Assembly: GCF_002802875.1 (NCBI RefSeq)
Contig: NZ_PEBI01000001.1
Span: 831,830 to 895,829 of the forward strand
DNA length: 64,000 bases
Direction: 5' to 3'
Source of the DNA: Bifidobacterium primatium
GTDB taxonomy: Bacteria; Actinomycetota; Actinomycetes; Actinomycetales; Bifidobacteriaceae
Below the pieces are notes generated by a model. That model searched no databases. It was not told where the DNA came from and worked only from the letters and a program-made list of their open reading frames with translations. Shown here in pieces: positions 27,034 to 33,171 of this stretch. Within the stretch, counting starts at the first letter, position 1, and each line of letters opens with the position of its first letter. The translations under genes and the position numbers were made by a program.

Positions 27034-27201
27034 TTTTTCCTGGAGGAACCTTCGGCGCATCCACCCTCCAACCACACCTGAAAAGCGCTCACACCCCCAT
27101 GATTGCAACGCTGAATATCCCTATGTCAAACGATTCACCTTCGCCGAATCATCCGTCCATATGCACGCGACCATACGCACCATTGCATAATCGGCCGACG
27201 C

Positions 27202-27242
27202 AAAACCGCCGCCTCCGAACGAATCGGAAGGCGGCGGTCTTC
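27202..27242 (-). terminator. Terminator of the first ilvC copy
   Basis: On the minus strand GACCGCCGCC pairs with GGCGGCGGTTTT, and a T tract closes the hairpin (arms 27205-27218 and 27225-27238, some mismatches). It follows the hairpin array behind ilvC. Confidence 0.7.
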
Positions 27243-27250
27243 AATCACGC

Positions 27251-27366
27251 TTGGTCAGTGATAAATCACTGCCAGTGCCGATTGGTCGGTGAGCAAGCTC
27301 ACTGCCAATGTTGACTGGTCAGTGATAAATCACTGGCCGCGCCATTGGTCAGCGACTGGCGTCACT
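27251..27366 (-). repeat. Tandem hairpin array starting at the ilvC stop codon
   Basis: Read leftward from the ilvC stop, short hairpins of the type CAGTGA-TTTA-TCACTG recur at least three times, alternating with CAGTGAGC-TT-GCTCAC forms and TTGGTC/GACCAA linkers. The first CAGTGA contains the last Gln codon and the TGA stop itself. A shorter version follows the second ilvC gene (28759-28811). The array lies before the terminator and could protect the 3' end of the mRNA. Confidence 0.6.
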
Positions 27367-28414
27367 GAACCTGGGCGCGGGCGATCTTGCCGGTGAAGGA
27401 GTTGGCCTCGTCGGCGTCCTTCACGGCGTCCTTGTTCCAGGAGAACATGGCGCGCAGCTTCGGGCCGACGGTCTCGATGCGCTCGTTGGAGTACTTCTCC
27501 TGCAGCTCCTTGAAGTGCGGGGCGCCGGCGTCCTGATCGTCGATGAACTCCTTGGCGAAGGAACCGTCCTGGATGCGGCCCAGGTGGTACTCCATGCGCT
27601 TGCGGCAGTCCTCGTTGATGACGGTGTTGGTGTAGTCGCCGTACTGGGCGGTGTCGGAGCAGGACCAACGGGCCTTGTTCAGACCACCCTCGTTCATGAG
27701 GTCGACGAGCATCTTCAGCTCGTGGCAGACCTCGAAGTAGGCGATTTCCGGCTGGTAGCCGGCGTCGGTGAGGACCTCGAAGCCCATCTCGACGAGCTTG
27801 TTCACGCCGCCCATGAGCACGTTCTGCTCGCCGAAGAGATCGGTCTCGGTCTCCTCCTTGAACGTGGTCTTGATGGCGCCGGCGCGCAGGGCGCCGAGAG
27901 CCTTGGCGTAGGCCAGGGTCAGAGCCCAGCCGTCGCCACGCGGATCCTGCTCGACGGCCACGACCACCGGGACGCCACGGCCGGCGGCGTACTCACGACG
28001 CACGATGTGGCCCGGGCCCTTCGGAGCGACCATGAAGACCGGGTGGTCGGCGGTCGGCTTGATGTAGCCGTAGTGGATGTTGAAGCCGTGGGCGAAGGCG
28101 ACGGCGGCGCCTTCCTTGATGTTGGGCTCGATGTCGTTGGCCCAGATCGTGCGCTGGTACTGATCGGGGGCCAGGATCATGATGACATCGGCTTCGGCGG
28201 AAGCCTCGGCCACGGACTTGACCTCGAGGCCCTGCTCCTTGGCGAACTGGACCGACTTGGAGGTCGGACGAAGGCCGACGACCACGTCGACGCCGGAATC
28301 GCGCAGGTTCAGCGCGTGGGCGTGACCCTGGGAACCGTAACCGATGATGGCAACCTTCTTGCCGGCGAGGACGGAGAGATCGCCGTCGTTTTCGTACCAG
28401 ATCTGTGCAGCCAT
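27362..28414 (-). CDS. ilvC: Ketol-acid reductoisomerase, copy 1
   Basis: A 350-residue class I enzyme. It converts acetolactate and acetohydroxybutyrate to dihydroxy acids with NAD(P)H and Mg2+ in valine, leucine and isoleucine synthesis. The Rossmann motif [13 protein letters not shown] (about 25-37) and cofactor-selecting loop LRPTSKS are present. The C-terminal helical domain has the metal-binding DLFGEQ...E and CHELK...E patterns. AAGGAG precedes the ATG. It shares most residues with the neighbouring copy, with differences concentrated in the last 60 residues, so a tandem duplication is clear. Between the copies lies a terminator, so each is probably its own transcription unit. Confidence 0.95.
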
Positions 28415-28703
28415 GTAAGCACTCCTTAACTACTGCGAATGTTGTTGTGGTTGCGCATAAGCGCCGCGCGTGATGCGCGTGGTGTCCGATGCCTGGACGA
28501 CTGCCGGCTCATTCACCCGCGTGGCGTGCACACCCCGCGCAACGATCATGAACCGCTCGATCGTCCACTCAGACGAGCTCATCTGAGGATTTTGTCCTGC
28601 AAACTGCCCACCATCCTACCGATAATGTCGCTTTCGTCACATCGGCGTCCACAACGTGGGCGCTTCCTTGAGTCGGCACAGCTCAGGTTCGGTTTTGCAT
28701 ATA

Positions 28704-28743
28704 GAAAACCGCCGCCCCGAAATATTCGGGAGCGGCGGTTTTC
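28704..28743 (-). terminator. Terminator of the second ilvC copy
   Basis: GAAAACCGCCGC pairs with GCGGCGGTTTTC around an AT-rich loop (28704-28743). It lies downstream of the leftward ilvC copy 2. The rest of 28415-28805 upstream of copy 1 shows no gene and probably holds its promoter. Confidence 0.75.
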
Positions 28744-28758
28744 TACGCTATCGAAACG

Positions 28759-28811
28759 TCAGTCAGCGATAAATCACTGGCAGCGCCATCGGTCAGCAAG
28801 CAAGCTCACTG
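28759..28811 (-). repeat. Stop-codon hairpins of ilvC copy 2
   Basis: Leftward from the stop codon: CAGTGA (with TGA as stop), a GCTTGC duplicate, then CAGTGATTTATCGCTG and TGACTGAC. It is a shorter relative of the array behind copy 1, suggesting that the 3' tail was duplicated with the gene and then amplified at copy 1. Confidence 0.5.
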
Positions 28812-29858
28812 AACCTGGGTACGAGCGATCTTGCCGTTGAAGGACTCAGCCTCATCGGCGTCCTTGGCCGGGCCGTTGTTCCAGGAGAACATGGCGCGCA
28901 GCTTCGGGCCAACGGTCTCCAGGTGCGGGTGAGAGAACTCTTCCTGCAGCTTCTTGAACTTCGGGGCGCCGGCGGCCTGGTCATCCATGAACTCCTTGGC
29001 GAAGGAGCCGTCCTGGATGCGCTTGAGCTGGTACTGCATGCGCTTCTTGGTCTCCTCGGTGATGACCGTGGAGGTGTAGTCGCCGTACTGGGCGGTGTCG
29101 GAGCAGGACCAACGGGCCTTGTTCAGACCACCCTCGTTGGCGAGGTCGACCAGCATCTTCAGCTCGTGGAACACCTCGAAGTAGGCGATCTCCGGCTGGT
29201 AGCCGGCCTCGGTCAGCACGTCGAAGCCGAGGTCGCACAGGTGGTTGATGCCGCCCATGAGGACGTCCTGCTCGCCGAACAGATCGGTCTCGGTCTCTTC
29301 GGTGAAGGTCGTCTTGATGGCGCCGGCGCGCAGGGCGCCGAGAGCCTTGGCGTAGGCCAGGGTGATGGCCCAGCCGTCACCGCGAGGATCCTGCTCGACG
29401 GCCACGACCACCGGGACGCCACGGCCGGCGGCGTACTCACGACGCACGATGTGGCCCGGGCCCTTCGGAGCGACCATGAACACGGGGTGATCCTCGGACG
29501 GCTTGATGTAGCCGTAGTGGATGTTGAAGCCGTGGGCGAAGGCCAGAGCGGCACCCGGCTTCAGGTTCGGCTCGACGTCCTTCTTGTACACGGCGGCCTG
29601 GTACTGGTCAGGCAGCAGGATCATGACGATGTCGGCCTCGGCGACGGCCTCCGGCACGGACTTGACCTCGAGGCCCTGCTCCTTGGCGAACTCGACGGAC
29701 TTGGAGGTCGGACGAAGGCCGACGACCACGTCGACGCCGGAATCGCGCAGGTTCAGCGCGTGGGCGTGACCCTGGGAACCGTAGCCGAGGATGGCCACCT
29801 TCTTGCCTTCGAGCACGGACAGATCGGCGTCCTTCTCGTACCAGATAGTTGCTGCCAT
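28806..29858 (-). CDS. ilvC: Ketol-acid reductoisomerase, copy 2
   Basis: A 350-residue paralog of the adjacent enzyme, with the same [13 protein letters not shown] nucleotide-binding motif, LRPTSKS loop, and conserved Asp/Glu metal ligands (DLFGEQ, E-L-K regions). Both copies look catalytically intact, so they may differ in regulation or substrate preference (acetolactate or acetohydroxybutyrate). AAAGGAG is well spaced before the ATG at 29858; the in-frame ATG three codons earlier is not. It probably has its own promoter at about 30003-30030. Confidence 0.95.
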
Positions 29859-29885
29859 GATTGGCACTCCTTTATATTGTTTGGT

Positions 29886-30030
29886 GATTGCCGAGCGATC
29901 GGACGTCCGGCAATCGGGTGAGATTGCTGACGGCCTTCGGCGAGAAGGATTGTGTCCTAGACGTTGAAAGTCATCTTCACTAGGGGCTATTTCTAGTCCT
30001 CCAGCGTACGACGCGGAAGTCCGCGTCCAA
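29886..30030 (-). promoter_or_regulatory. ilvC copy 2 promoter and leader hairpin
   Basis: Minus-strand TTGGAC (30025-30030) and TACGCT (30003-30008) with a 16-base spacer form a fair promoter. The spacer carries a palindrome (30010-30027, GACGCGGA and complement). Near the gene, GATTGCCG (29886-29893) pairs with CGGCAATC (29908-29915), placing a hairpin just before the ribosome binding site. No run of Ile, Leu or Val codons is seen in this leader. Confidence 0.4.
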
Positions 30031-30182
30031 ATATTGGATATTCAATTTTCGTATCGCGGATGGCGGTCATTCGACCGCCGAATCCGCGCTGTGTTCATTC
30101 GACCATCGTCGAATGAACGGGAGCTGAATTCCATCAAAGAATCCGATGAAATCAGCCGCCGATAATCCTCAGAACAACACCA

Positions 30183-31535
30183 TCACTTGGTGAAATCAAC
30201 GTTCTTAGTCTCATGGCACGAAAGCACTGCAACGAGGCAGCACACGGCCATGACGCCGAGGTAGAGGCCCACCGAGTGCACGCCGAAGTGGCTGGACAGC
30301 CAGGTGGCGATGGTCGGCACGAAGGCGGCGCCGACGATGGCGGCAAGGTTGTATCCGATGCCGGAGCCGGAGTAGCGCACGTTGGCGTCGAACAGCTCGG
30401 GCAGGAAGGCGCCGATCGGGCCGAAGGCGGTGCCCATCAGGGCGAAGCCGACGCACAGGAACACCATGTTGGCGAAGAAGTTGCGCTGGCCGACGATCTG
30501 GCCGTTCAGCAGGAACGGGAACAGGGCGGCGAACACGACGAGCAGCACGGAGGAGGTGATGATCACGCGCTTACGGCCGAACTTGTCGGCGTTCACGCAG
30601 GAGATCACGATGAAGGCGGCGAACACGCAGATGGCGATCATCAGCATGAGCAGGTACTCCTGGTTGGTGAAGCCGAGGCCGCCGCCGCCCTCGCCCTGGG
30701 CCTTGGTACCCCAGGCGAGCGACCAGGTGGCGAGCGTGTAGAACAGCGTGTAGGTGACGGCAACGAGGAACGTGGCCTGCAGGACCTGGACCCAGCTCTT
30801 GCGGAACACTTCGACGATCGGGGCCTTGACGACCTGCTTCTTCTCCTGGGCCATGCGGAAGATCGGGGTCTCCTCCATGTGGACTCGCACGACGAGGCCG
30901 ATGATCACGAGGATGGCGCTCAGCAGGAACGGCACACGCCAGCCCCAGGCCAGCATGGCGGCGGAGTCATTGAAGGATTCGAGCACGAAGTAGGTGCCGT
31001 TGGAGAGGAAGAAGCCGATCGGGGCGCCGAGCTCCGGGAAGGAGCCGTAGAGGGCGCGCTTGTTCTCGGGCGCGTTCTCGGTGGCGACCAGTGCGGCGCC
31101 GGACCATTCGCCGCCCAGGCCGATGCCCTGCACGAAGCGCAGCAGGCAGAGGATGGCGACCGCGGCGATGCCCCAGGTGTTGTAGGTCGGCAGGCAGCCG
31201 ATGAGGAACGTGCCGACGCCCATCGTCATGAGGGAGACGACCAGCGTGGTCTTGCGGCCCATGCGATCGCCGAAGTGGCCGAACACCAGCGAGCCGAGCG
31301 GACGGGCGATGAAGGCGATGGCGAAGGTGAGCAGGCTCATCAGCAGGGCGACCGTCGGGTTCGCCTTGTCGGAGAAGAAGATGTGCGGGAAGTAGTTCGC
31401 AGCGGCGGTGCCGTATGCGTAGAAGTCGTAGAACTCGATGGCCGTGCCGACCATGGAGGCGGCGATGACGGTCTTGACGGAGTCACGTGCCATCGTCTTG
31501 AGTTTGCTATCAGTCGTAGCCTCGACTGCTGTCAT
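30183..31535 (-). CDS. MFS transporter of the metabolite:H+ symporter type
   Basis: A 450-residue, twelve-helix member of the MHS branch of the major facilitator superfamily (ShiA/ProP/KgtP relatives). It has the ASxxGTxxEFYDFYxYG start in helix 1 (about 25), the loop 2-3 motif GHFGDRMGRK (about 95) and the RFVQGIGLGGEWSGA signature (about 135). The family carries mono- and dicarboxylates, betaine or shikimate. Here a leader peptide with three Ile codons and a terminator lie upstream in the same transcript, so a branched-chain amino or keto acid substrate is inferred. A GGAG with adequate spacing sets the start at 31535; the longer frame lacks support. Confidence 0.85.
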   Translation of the reverse strand: MTAVEATTDSKLKTMARDSVKTVIAASMVGTAIEFYDFYAYGTAAANYFPHIFFSDKANPTVALLMSLLTFAIAFIARPLGSLVFGHFGDRMGRKTTLVVSLMTMGVGTFLIGCLPTYNTWGIAAVAILCLLRFVQGIGLGGEWSGAALVATENAPENKRALYGSFPELGAPIGFFLSNGTYFVLESFNDSAAMLAWGWRVPFLLSAILVIIGLVVRVHMEETPIFRMAQEKKQVVKAPIVEVFRKSWVQVLQATFLVAVTYTLFYTLATWSLAWGTKAQGEGGGGLGFTNQEYLLMLMIAICVFAAFIVISCVNADKFGRKRVIITSSVLLVVFAALFPFLLNGQIVGQRNFFANMVFLCVGFALMGTAFGPIGAFLPELFDANVRYSGSGIGYNLAAIVGAAFVPTIATWLSSHFGVHSVGLYLGVMAVCCLVAVLSCHETKNVDFTK

Positions 31536-31696
31536 TTCTCTAATCTCCTGTGTAGTCCGTGAATCTTCTGTCCGGGGGCCAACGGTTTCTCTCTGCAAGC
31601 GGCCGTCCGTCCGATTCCCGGGTTTCTCAGTTTCTTGAGTTGTTTTCCGCCGTTCGTTTTTTCATTCCGTGTATCGGATTGCGATCGTGCGACATG

Positions 31697-31722
31697 AAAA
31701 AAGCCCCGCTTTTGGCAGGGCT
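31697..31722 (-). terminator. Intrinsic terminator of the isoleucine attenuator
   Basis: On the minus strand AGCCCTGC pairs with GCGGGGCT around CAAAA and is followed at once by TTTTTT (31697-31702). It sits between the leader peptide and the MFS gene with no other gene to terminate. An upstream segment, GCGGGGTT near 31745-31755, mimics the 3' arm and could pair with AGCCCTGC as an antiterminator. Confidence 0.7.
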
Positions 31723-31789
31723 CAAAACTGGATTTTGTCTGTTCCAAACCCCGCCGCGTTGACGGGATCGAACAGTGAAAAATGCCGAA

Positions 31790-31876
31790 TCAGTCCGCCA
31801 ACGAAGACGGAATAATAATTCGGCCGGACACAGCGGCGCTCATTTCAGCGGTAAGTGCAGCGGTCATTCCGTTCAT
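31790..31876 (-). CDS. Leader peptide with Ile-Ile-Ile codons
   Basis: A 28-codon frame with a strong ribosome site AAAGGAGG nine bases before the ATG. It begins MNGMTAAL and contains R-I-I-I-P, with three successive ATT codons (residues 20-22), an unusual choice in this GC-rich DNA. The Ile codons lie in a loop closed by GCCGAAT (before the codons) and ATTCGGC (just after the stop). A ribosome stalled on them would open this stem. A terminator follows about 70 bases after the stop, and the MFS gene comes next. This is the layout of a classical amino-acid attenuator of the ilv leader type. The peptide probably has no function after synthesis. Confidence 0.65.
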   Translation of the reverse strand: MNGMTAALTAEMSAAVSGRIIIPSSLAD

Positions 31877-31938
31877 CTTGGCGAACCTCCTTTCGGTGTC
31901 ATACATCTTTGCGGGCCGTTCGACCCGAACCACTGTGA

Positions 31939-31967
31939 AAGATAGGCGCGGGTGCGGGCCGGCACAA
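31939..31967 (-). promoter_or_regulatory. Promoter of the leader peptide / MFS unit
   Basis: TTGTGC (31962-31967) and TATCTT (31939-31944) on the minus strand are separated by exactly 17 bases. The start point would be near 31932, about 56 bases before the leader ATG. Confidence 0.55.
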
Positions 31968-32108
31968 TGCGAGGGTCACTATGTGGACAGTTCGGCGTTC
32001 ATGTTACGAACACCGTACTTCGTGACGTCAACGCTGCCAACGGAACGGAACCGAAACGTGCGATCGGTTCCTGTTGGTTGCGTATAGGTCGGTTGCGTAT
32101 AGACGCGG

Positions 32109-33140
32109 TCAGCGCGTGGTCTCGCCGGGGACGAGGGCGACGGGGACGAGACCGGCCGTGTCACCGTCGGGGCCGGAGCGCCTCTCCCCCATGGCCGCTG
32201 TCATGGCCGAGGCAAGACGGTCGGCGATGGCGTCGATATCCTGACGGACCGTGGTGATTCTACGGCCGGCGAGCGCGGTGACAGGAGTGCCGTCGTAGGC
32301 GATAATCTGCAGATCGTCGGGGATGCGACGACCGCGGGCGATGGCGAGGCGTACGCAATGGGCGGCGGCCAGGTCGGGCGCGATGATGGCGTCGGCGTCG
32401 GGGAACCGTCGGAACGCCTCCTCGGCGGTCTGTTCGAACAGATCGAGGTCGCTGACGTGTTCGACGGTGATGTAGTCGCATCGAATGCCGGCTTCGGCGA
32501 GGTCGCGTTCGAATGTGCGGTGATAGCGCACGGTGGGGAACGTGGTGTCGGCCGCGGTACCGGCCGTGGCGGCGAGGTCGTGGAACTGCGAGCGCGGGCC
32601 GCCAATCTCGACGACGTGGCGCACGCCGGTGTCGATGAACCGTTGCGCGGCGAGATGGCCGCCGGTCTCGTGGTCGGAGCAGACGGAGGGGATGCCGTCG
32701 CCGAGATAGCGGTCGAATGCCACGATGGGCCGGCCGATGGACTGCCAGTAGGCGGGCGGACGGCTGGTGTGCGAGCCGATGATGATGCCGTCCATCGTGT
32801 GGCGGCGGAGCATGTCGATGTATTCGGCCTCGCCTCGGTCCTGGTCGGCAGTGGAGCAAAGCATCACGCGCAGCCCGGCCTTGTGCAGCCGGCCTTGGAT
32901 GGCGGCGGTGAGCTGCGCGAAGAACGGATGGGCGATGGTGGGGATGGTCACGCCGACGAGGTTCGTGCGGCCCTGCGAAAGGCTGCGGGCGAGGTCGTTG
33001 GGCACGTAGTCGAGTTCGGCCATGGCGGCCTCGATGCGCTCGCGCGTCTCGTCGGCCACGTAGCCGGTGCCGTTCACCGCCAGTGACACCGTGCTCAGCG
33101 ACACTCCGGCCCGACGCGCCACGTCCCGCATCCCCACCAT
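32109..33140 (-). CDS. LacI-family transcriptional repressor
   Basis: A 343-residue regulator. The N-terminal helix-turn-helix (MRDVARRAGVSLSTVSLAVNG, about 4-25) and hinge helix (about 45-60) are typical LacI. The rest is a periplasmic-binding-protein-like sensor with a conserved effector-pocket layout. AAGGAGG lies five bases before the chosen ATG; the frame extends 20 codons further over a likely terminator. It is near the GH13 alpha-glucosidase gene, whose upstream region holds a palindrome at 35706-35719 of LacI-operator type. Control of alpha-glucoside use is therefore inferred, as with agl regulators in bifidobacteria. Confidence 0.88.
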   Translation of the reverse strand: MVGMRDVARRAGVSLSTVSLAVNGTGYVADETRERIEAAMAELDYVPNDLARSLSQGRTNLVGVTIPTIAHPFFAQLTAAIQGRLHKAGLRVMLCSTADQDRGEAEYIDMLRRHTMDGIIIGSHTSRPPAYWQSIGRPIVAFDRYLGDGIPSVCSDHETGGHLAAQRFIDTGVRHVVEIGGPRSQFHDLAATAGTAADTTFPTVRYHRTFERDLAEAGIRCDYITVEHVSDLDLFEQTAEEAFRRFPDADAIIAPDLAAAHCVRLAIARGRRIPDDLQIIAYDGTPVTALAGRRITTVRQDIDAIADRLASAMTAAMGERRSGPDGDTAGLVPVALVPGETTR

Positions 33141-33171
33141 CGTCGCCTCCTTGCGTATGGGCCCGCATATG

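Follow-up and report, generated by a model that had tools for sequence, protein, structure and literature searches.

Ribosome-mediated attenuation with the layout of the his leader is a known kind of control, in which RNA segments A to F pair either as A:B, C:D, and E:F or as B:C and D:E, with control codons in a leader peptide and with an intrinsic terminator. For the Corynebacterium ilvBNC leader (the ilvB-II motif), the available parts of two papers describe an upstream open reading frame (uORF) rich in branched-chain codons, together with a terminator, an antiterminator, and an anti-antiterminator (PMC10272879, PMC11857589). Leaders of ilvB were also predicted in Corynebacterium, Mycobacterium, and Streptomyces by Seliverstov et al. 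in 2005 (PMC1262725), and the accessible portion of that paper gives, for Bifidobacterium longum, a cbs leader and a LEU-like element within a transposase gene.

In the window (the whole 64,000-nucleotide stretch of Bifidobacterium primatium DNA analyzed here), a leader of about 250 nt stands ahead of a 450-codon MFS transporter gene, with two ilvC genes behind it; the leader and all three genes are on the minus strand (Table 1). The DNA carries an in-frame leader ORF, rare codons before segment 1, conserved and mutually exclusive predicted helices, and a predicted terminator 5' of the transporter gene. We consider it likely, at a probability of roughly 0.87, that this is a transcription attenuator of the ribosome-mediated, six-segment type, reading the charging of Ile-tRNA, with an NdgR/LtbR-type regulator acting upstream and a branched-chain importer as the product. 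A sequence-only reading of this DNA had proposed that the transporter leader responds to Ile-tRNA charging, and conservation and compensatory changes in the sequence support that proposal as a prediction.

Table 1. Features of the leader and its neighboring genes, in window coordinates
Feature	Position	Strand	Evidence
MHS-like MFS transporter gene	30183..31535, ATG 31535	(-)	TIGR00883; Pfam Sugar_tr and MFS_1 above cut-off
ilvC1, ketol-acid reductoisomerase	28806..29858	(-)	NF004017, 510 bits
ilvC2, ketol-acid reductoisomerase	27362..28414	(-)	NF004017, 519.2 bits
15-bp palindrome-like site GTCCACATAGTGACC, NdgR/LtbR-like candidate operator	31974..31988	(-)	Leader comparison; published consensus
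-10-like TATCTT	31939..31944	(-)	CTA[TC][CG][GT]T box in 54/84 leaders
Shine-Dalgarno sequence AAAGGAGG of leader ORF	31886..31893	(-)	Read in sequence
Leader ORF, 28 codons, MNGMTAALTAEMSAAVSGRIIIPSSLAD	31790..31876, ATG 31876, TGA ends 31790	(-)	Sequence; frame conservation
Control box CGA ATT ATT ATT	31811..31822	(-)	Kept across leaders
Segment 1 (CCGTC), inside ORF	31806..31810	(-)	Pairs with segment 2, 99.6% of cells, 55 unique leaders
Segment 2 (TTCGTTGGCGG), inside ORF	31795..31805	(-)	2:3 pairing
Segment 3 (CCCGTCAACG)	31757..31766	(-)	2:3 pairing
Segment 4 (GGCGGGGTT)	31747..31755	(-)	4:5, 96.0% paired
Motif GACAAAATCC, between segments 4 and 5; also upstream of both ilvC genes	31730..31739	(-)	
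Segments 5 (AGCCCTGCC) and 6 (GCGGGGCT), predicted intrinsic terminator, six T	31697..31723	(-)	Terminator scan; 5:6 covariation

The assignment of the transporter to the MHS family, made in the same reading, holds loosely: the best match is TIGR00883 over the whole profile length and Pfam places the protein in the MFS, but the score of 410.7 bits does not reach the cut-off of 443.45. The two ilvC genes said to stand beside it were both seen. Over 457 residues the transporter shows 100% identity to its B. saimiriisciurei counterpart, and orthologues, taken at an E value of ≤1e-200 (a limit chosen after a gap to 9e-157 was apparent), are present in 119 of 189 Bifidobacteriaceae genomes; one more, cut by a contig end and with its leader present (G025), lies outside that count. 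An ilvC gene on the same strand was found 1.2 to 5 kb past the transporter start in 78 of 80 orthologous loci. Directly upstream of the leader in the window is a LacI-family regulator gene (32109-33143, minus strand). In the stretches examined, some of them short, no LacI-family homologue was found in 47 of the 80 loci, and the gene is therefore probably unrelated to the leader.

The comparison of Ile codons across Bifidobacterium that had been suggested as a check was carried out, and the leader box was present upstream of the transporter in all 80 orthologous loci, with two or three successive Ile codons in 78 and ATT-ATG-ATT in the other two (L097 and L100). A covariance model (R1) spanning the Ile box to segment 4 was built from an alignment (A1) that took in 45 of the 55 unique leaders and omitted those outside the 80 loci along with a few near-duplicates. 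It gave 124 matches in 117 of the 189 family genomes, and these are not independent because the model was trained on 45 leaders of that family. A match lies 92 to 521 bp upstream of 114 of the 119 transporter orthologues; the remaining 5, which belong to two family genera (g8 and g11), carry a diverged leader with the box CGAATTATTA and with RII in the leader ORF. In the three leaders of genus g11 (L198, L199, and L200), the peptide is Val/Leu/Ile rich and 64 to 80 codons long, the usual form being short. When R1 was run against 396 genomes of the order (35 of the family and 361 outside it, a split judged from the order of listing), all 23 matches fell inside the family. On the strength of the leader conservation and of this confinement to the family, a chance origin was rejected; the leader is real and far beyond chance.

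The Shine-Dalgarno sequence, the 28 codons, and the three ATT codons in a row that had been described for the window leader were all located (Table 1). For the wider comparison, 88 leaders (that of the window, those of 78 loci, and 9 others) were collected with the pattern CGN-ATH-ATH and a stop 5 to 12 codons on. In 70 of these, AGGAGG is followed by ATG 4 to 12 nt on, and in all 70 the box is in frame with that ATG without an intervening stop, at distances that take 17 values from 8 to 69 codons. The other 18 leaders, which have weaker Shine-Dalgarno sequences or other starts, are outside this frame count; an SD-like start is present in 84 of the 88 and is missing from L118, L125, L129, and L137. 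The commonest ends of the leader peptide are RIIIPSSLAD (31 leaders), RIISPSSLAD (13), and RIISPSSPAD (9), with 22 more forms among the 88. In 37 of the 88 leaders (36 by a tally of the codons), the run is limited to two Ile codons, and the third codon (AGC in 33, AAC in 2, and ACC in 1) encodes Ser, Asn, or Thr.

Six segments were recognized, of which 1:2, 3:4, and 5:6 (the terminator) compete with 2:3 and 4:5 (the antiterminator). The terminator GAGCCCTGCC-AAAA-GCGGGGCTTTTTT with six T, named in the sequence-only reading, was recovered as the longest stem (9 pairs) of 8 terminator-like sites in 27200-32300 (shuffle mean, 3.8), and the upstream segment 4, which had been put forward as a rival of the terminator's 3' arm, does pair with the 5' arm through 9 pairs, as judged by eye. 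Helices 2:3 and 3:4 are additions to the elements named there. Among 55 unique leaders, 99.6% of cells were paired in 1:2, 91.2% in 2:3, 85.7% in 3:4, 87.3% in 4:5, and 94.3% in 5:6, and each of the five fractions beat 500 of 500 shuffles; these shuffles, like those of the alignment counts below, do not preserve relatedness, and kinship inflates the significance.

Counted on alignments (alignment A2 held 47 of 50 leaders, the long-linker leaders L096, L108, and L125 being left out), helix 2:3 was 95.0% paired, a level reached in 0 of 500 shuffles and falling to 25 to 64% when slid. It contained 9 two-sided cells (0 of 500 shuffles), and its 2 pairs with two-sided changes do not exceed what shuffles yield (322 of 500). 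The terminator helix 5:6 was 97.8% paired (0 of 500 shuffles; 44 to 60% when slid), with 20 two-sided cells (0 of 500). The antiterminator 4:5 was 96.0% paired, compared to 26 to 48% when slid, and was not above shuffles in either pairing (149 of 500) or covariation score (72 of 500); the same was true of 1:2 and 3:4 taken jointly (165 and 485 of 500). Compensatory changes, the other feature for which a check had been suggested, were thus present in 2:3 and in the terminator, but 1:2, 3:4, and 4:5 did not rise above shuffles. Segments 3 and 4 meet in a C·A mismatch in 35 of the 55 unique leaders, and at that position an A-U pair lies between segments 4 and 5 in 39 of the 55, the pattern expected of an antiterminator under selection.

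The 10 of 88 leaders whose Arg codon and stop codon are not 10 codons apart were left out from terminator scoring on. In 72 of the 78 leaders scored, at least 4 of 6 bases following the hairpin are T; the 6 with fewer are L115, L118, L135, L137, and the ilvC2 leaders of L141 and L142. The leaders of L118 and L137 were also left out of the 55-leader pairing set and the 76-leader folding set, and no clear terminator was seen in L130 and L131. In genus g6, the ilvC2 leaders of L141 (minus strand, 10249) and L142 (minus strand, 6356) keep CGAATTATTA and RIIS, and no clear terminator was found in them ahead of ilvC; control there may act at translation or may have been lost.

In the mechanism that we propose, a shortage of Ile-tRNA would stall the ribosome at the ATT codons, where it would cover segment 1; 2:3 and 4:5 would then pair, the terminator 5:6 would be blocked, and the transporter would be made. 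With ample Ile-tRNA, the ribosome would reach the stop codon and cover segment 2, so that 3:4 and 5:6 would form and transcription would end near 31697. An NdgR/LtbR-type regulator would act in addition at the upstream palindrome, and the transporter would import a branched-chain amino acid or a 2-oxo acid precursor.

Equilibrium folding of transcripts that start 15 nt downstream of the P-site codon's first base backs this switch only in part. With the ribosome at the stop codon, the predicted probability of 3:4 was above 0.5 in 75 of 76 leaders, and with an Ile codon in the A site that of 2:3 was above 0.5 in 53 of 76 (first codon) or 42 of 76 (second codon). In the window leader, 2:3 stood at 0.51 versus 0.48 for 3:4 when the A site holds the second Ile codon and segment 5 has yet to be transcribed. 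In pre-terminator transcripts, the antiterminator was higher with the ribosome stalled at the second Ile codon than at the stop codon in 73 of 76 leaders, and at the stop it was still above 0.5 in 36 of 76, including that of the window (0.96). Full-length folding of the window leader gave an antiterminator probability of 0.90 to 0.91 when stalled and a terminator probability of 1.0 at the stop. Across the set, full-length equilibrium folding put the antiterminator higher in the stalled state, as expected, in only 32 of 76 leaders. The terminator probability passed 0.5 in 37 of 76 with the ribosome at the first Ile codon, in 34 at the second, and in 39 at the stop codon; the model therefore relies on folding during transcription. 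When no ribosome was placed on the leader, 2:3 won in 64 of 76, and an untranslated leader would therefore not be clearly shut.

Among the elements named earlier for this region, the promoter is the weakest. The 17-spaced arrangement TTGTGC-17-TATCTT is there, but it agrees with the consensus at 7 of 12 positions by our own count and was not listed by a scan requiring 9. Of 84 leaders, 54 have a CTA[TC][CG][GT]T box 25 to 100 nt ahead of the start, and no conserved -35 element was seen in 30 upstream regions. Matches of at least 11 of 15 to GTCCACATAGTGGAC, a reference taken from the same leaders that it scores, were found upstream of 74 of the 84 leaders with a start and in 33 of 1,680 mononucleotide-shuffled controls, and 72 of the 74 sit 102 to 136 nt before the leader start. 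The genome also contains an IclR_C gene (C2:76859-77317) divergent from leuC (C2:77876), an arrangement like that of ndgR and ltbR, which stand divergent to leuC; the NCBIfam IclR-type matches of this gene are all below cut-off. The accessible text of PMC8222616 gives the NdgR/LtbR consensus as KTYCRSMWYSYGRRM, and NdgR sites are placed at branched-chain genes in the available part of PMC4340878. Against KTYCRSMWYSYGRRM, the window palindrome agrees at 13 of 15 positions, and the best site reaches at least 13 of 15 in 76 of 84 leaders. The stretch between the IclR-family gene and leuC has no 15-mer scoring above 9 against GTCCACATAGTGGAC; within it, TTTCACATTATGAGA fits 14 of 15 positions of the degenerate NdgR/LtbR consensus. 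Neither of 2 other genome sites with 0 or 1 mismatch lies before an obvious branched-chain gene, as judged by eye. Two further stretches, GCCCACGTTGTGGAC upstream of ilvC2 (28661-28647) and ATCCAATATTTGGAC upstream of ilvC1 (30039-30025), resemble the candidate operator. One regulator may act on the transporter, ilvC1, and ilvC2, or the likeness at the ilvC genes may be due to chance, since 12-of-15 sites occur at four other places in the window.

A separate motif, GACAMAATCY, is shared on the minus strand by the transporter leader and the regions upstream of both ilvC genes (29956-29947 and 28596-28587 for the latter). Its 3 occurrences in the window compare with 0.33 expected, and 1 of 100 shuffles reached 3. 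Across the 80 loci, the gene strand carries 113 copies of GACAMAATC and the opposite strand 7; the motif lies 1.2 to 2.0 kb past the transporter start, before ilvC, in 60 loci and in the leader in 20. In the ilvC contexts examined it often follows a TATGAT-like box, with complementary bases flanking it (AGGACAAAATCCT). A role as a general regulon motif was rejected, as the genome has 10 matches, 3 of them here, and most of the other 7 appeared by eye to be genic or due to chance.

The most constant part of the leader is its codon box. CGA-ATT-ATT was found in 88 of 88 leaders, a count limited by the CGN-ATH-ATH selection, which could not return Met codons, and the codon after it always consists of A, any base, and a pyrimidine. 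Both codons are rare in the transporter genes (80 genes), where CGA makes up 51 of 1,353 Arg codons and ATT makes up 103 of 1,600 Ile codons. The box sits just before segment 1, the critical position for control codons. ATC is decoded by the same tRNA as ATT, and plain sensing of Ile therefore fails to explain the fixed ATT. Pairing does not explain it either: the outer stem GCCGAAT/ATTCGGC described earlier around the Ile codons is present in the window, and yet the partner ATTCG follows in 60 of 88 leaders and CGAAT is found in 88 of 88, so that the idea of CGAATTATTA being held by the outer stem was rejected. The near-fixed, rare CGA-ATT-ATT is thus not explained by amino acid sensing alone. 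A nascent peptide or a slow CGA-ATT pair might instead cause the stalling, and the leader would then sense translation speed or another signal rather than Ile-tRNA charging. The constancy of the rare box, where Ile sensing should allow ATC, speaks for this, as does the first A of the next codon, kept in 88 of 88 leaders as the residue varies among Ile, Ser, Asn, and Thr. We nevertheless regard it as unlikely, because the conserved stretch after the box (mostly PSSLAD) overlaps RNA segments 1 and 2, because the targets are branched-chain genes or their neighbors, and because the box is not absolute. Exceptions with ATG are CGA-ATT-ATG-ATT in L097 and L100, the same ATG in G078, G085, and G086, and CGA-ATG-ATT-ATT in the BASS leader of G133; a weak match in G117 carries CGA-ATT-ATC-ATC. 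The near-invariance of the ten-base box at the nucleotide level would also suit a riboswitch or protein site, with CGAATTATTA bound by a ligand or protein and the ORF incidental. That such a structured element accounts for the leader is very improbable given that all 70 leaders with AGGAGG and ATG keep a frame free of stops, at lengths of 8 to 69 codons, and that the box is located directly before segment 1. Moreover, an Rfam scan of the window gave no family at its gathering score, and a T-box or other Rfam identity was rejected, the leader matches at an E value of ≤5 being anti-hemB (0.0022), Trp_leader (0.52), and RyhB (0.65), all subthreshold. The same gathering scan gave no match to ilvB-II or ilvB-OMG, motifs that may be absent from Rfam.

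The attenuator that we favor is not confined to the MHS-like transporter. The leader also precedes ilvC in G072, ilvC2 in G140 and G141, and genes for PanS/BASS-like transporters in G030, G072, G133, and, weakly, G117 (E value, 2.9e-4). It was weakly matched before transporter paralogues in G072 (5.7e-4) and G117 (9.1e-4), and a narrow pattern search found none at the 57% paralogues L010 to L018. The BASS protein of G030 scored 139.6 bits against Pfam SBF (cut-off, 24.3) and stayed below the cut-offs of TIGR00841 (250.4 of 326.3) and PanS (239 of 400); BASS proteins of other genomes were recognized by their near-identical sequence to it. At E ≤1e-120, the sole MHS-like transporters of G030 and G072 are of the 57% kind, and replacement of the MHS-like transporter by a BASS protein is suggested there; G133 and G117 have both. 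According to the accessible part of PMC10645422, pyruvate and chain-elongated 2-keto acids are substrates of BASS members, PanS has been linked to the transport of ketopantoate and pantoate, and a Neisseria homologue bound pantoate and not ketopantoate. The presumed branched-chain relevance of the transporter is strengthened by the presence of the leader on ilvC and PanS/BASS-like genes and by the NdgR/LtbR-like operator, and the putative substrate can reasonably be guessed to be a branched-chain 2-oxo acid. Family resemblance leaves the direction of transport unfixed, and the protein could be an exporter that relieves branched-chain excess, like BrnFE of Corynebacterium, which exports excess branched-chain compounds; this we think quite improbable, as an attenuator that would be on in shortage would fit import. 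More tentatively, it is conceivable that CGA in the P site followed by ATT provides a built-in slow step heightening the sensitivity of the attenuator to Ile-tRNA, within a family-wide switch tuning the import of branched-chain 2-oxo acids through the MHS-like transporter or through a PanS/BASS-like transporter in its place.

The main text of a study of actinobacterial leader genes (PMC4833913) has no mention of isoleucine, ilv, a transporter, or MHS, and our literature search, with most subscription journals outside its scope, yielded no paper recognized as dealing with this leader. The transporter target, the family-wide spread, the near-fixed rare-codon box, and the use of one leader on two unrelated transporter families therefore appear to be unreported, no print of them having been found. 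The locus would add a predicted ribosome-mediated attenuator at a transporter, of a kind not found described in the literature searched, to this group of gut bacteria. It also provides an unassigned transporter, present in 119 of 189 Bifidobacteriaceae genomes, with a role in supplying branched-chain amino acids that can be put to the test, and the position of a predicted Ile-shortage switch beside Ile/Val synthesis genes hints at the cargo. With near-fixed codons at the predicted stall site, the leaders offer a natural series for directly testing how codon identity affects attenuation.

Compared to the his attenuator of E. coli and Salmonella, the leader shares the six-segment alternatives, the control codons in a leader peptide, and the intrinsic terminator; it differs in having Ile for His, a transporter rather than a biosynthetic operon as its target, and 2 to 3 control codons, and in its host family, the Bifidobacteriaceae. 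The candidate operator resembles the sites of the NdgR/LtbR regulon, which the available parts of PMC4340878 and PMC8222616 describe as a 15-bp imperfect palindrome, GTCCAC...GGAC, at branched-chain genes, and the accessible text of PMC8222616 has no mention of Bifidobacterium. The leaders in the available part of PMC1262725 are likewise actinobacterial attenuators, theirs standing at ilvB, with no transporter leader described in that part. Like the Corynebacterium ilvBNC leader, with which it is compared by the accessible published description only, the leader is a predicted actinobacterial uORF attenuator; in contrast to that leader, which governs ilvB/ilvBNC, it would govern a transporter.
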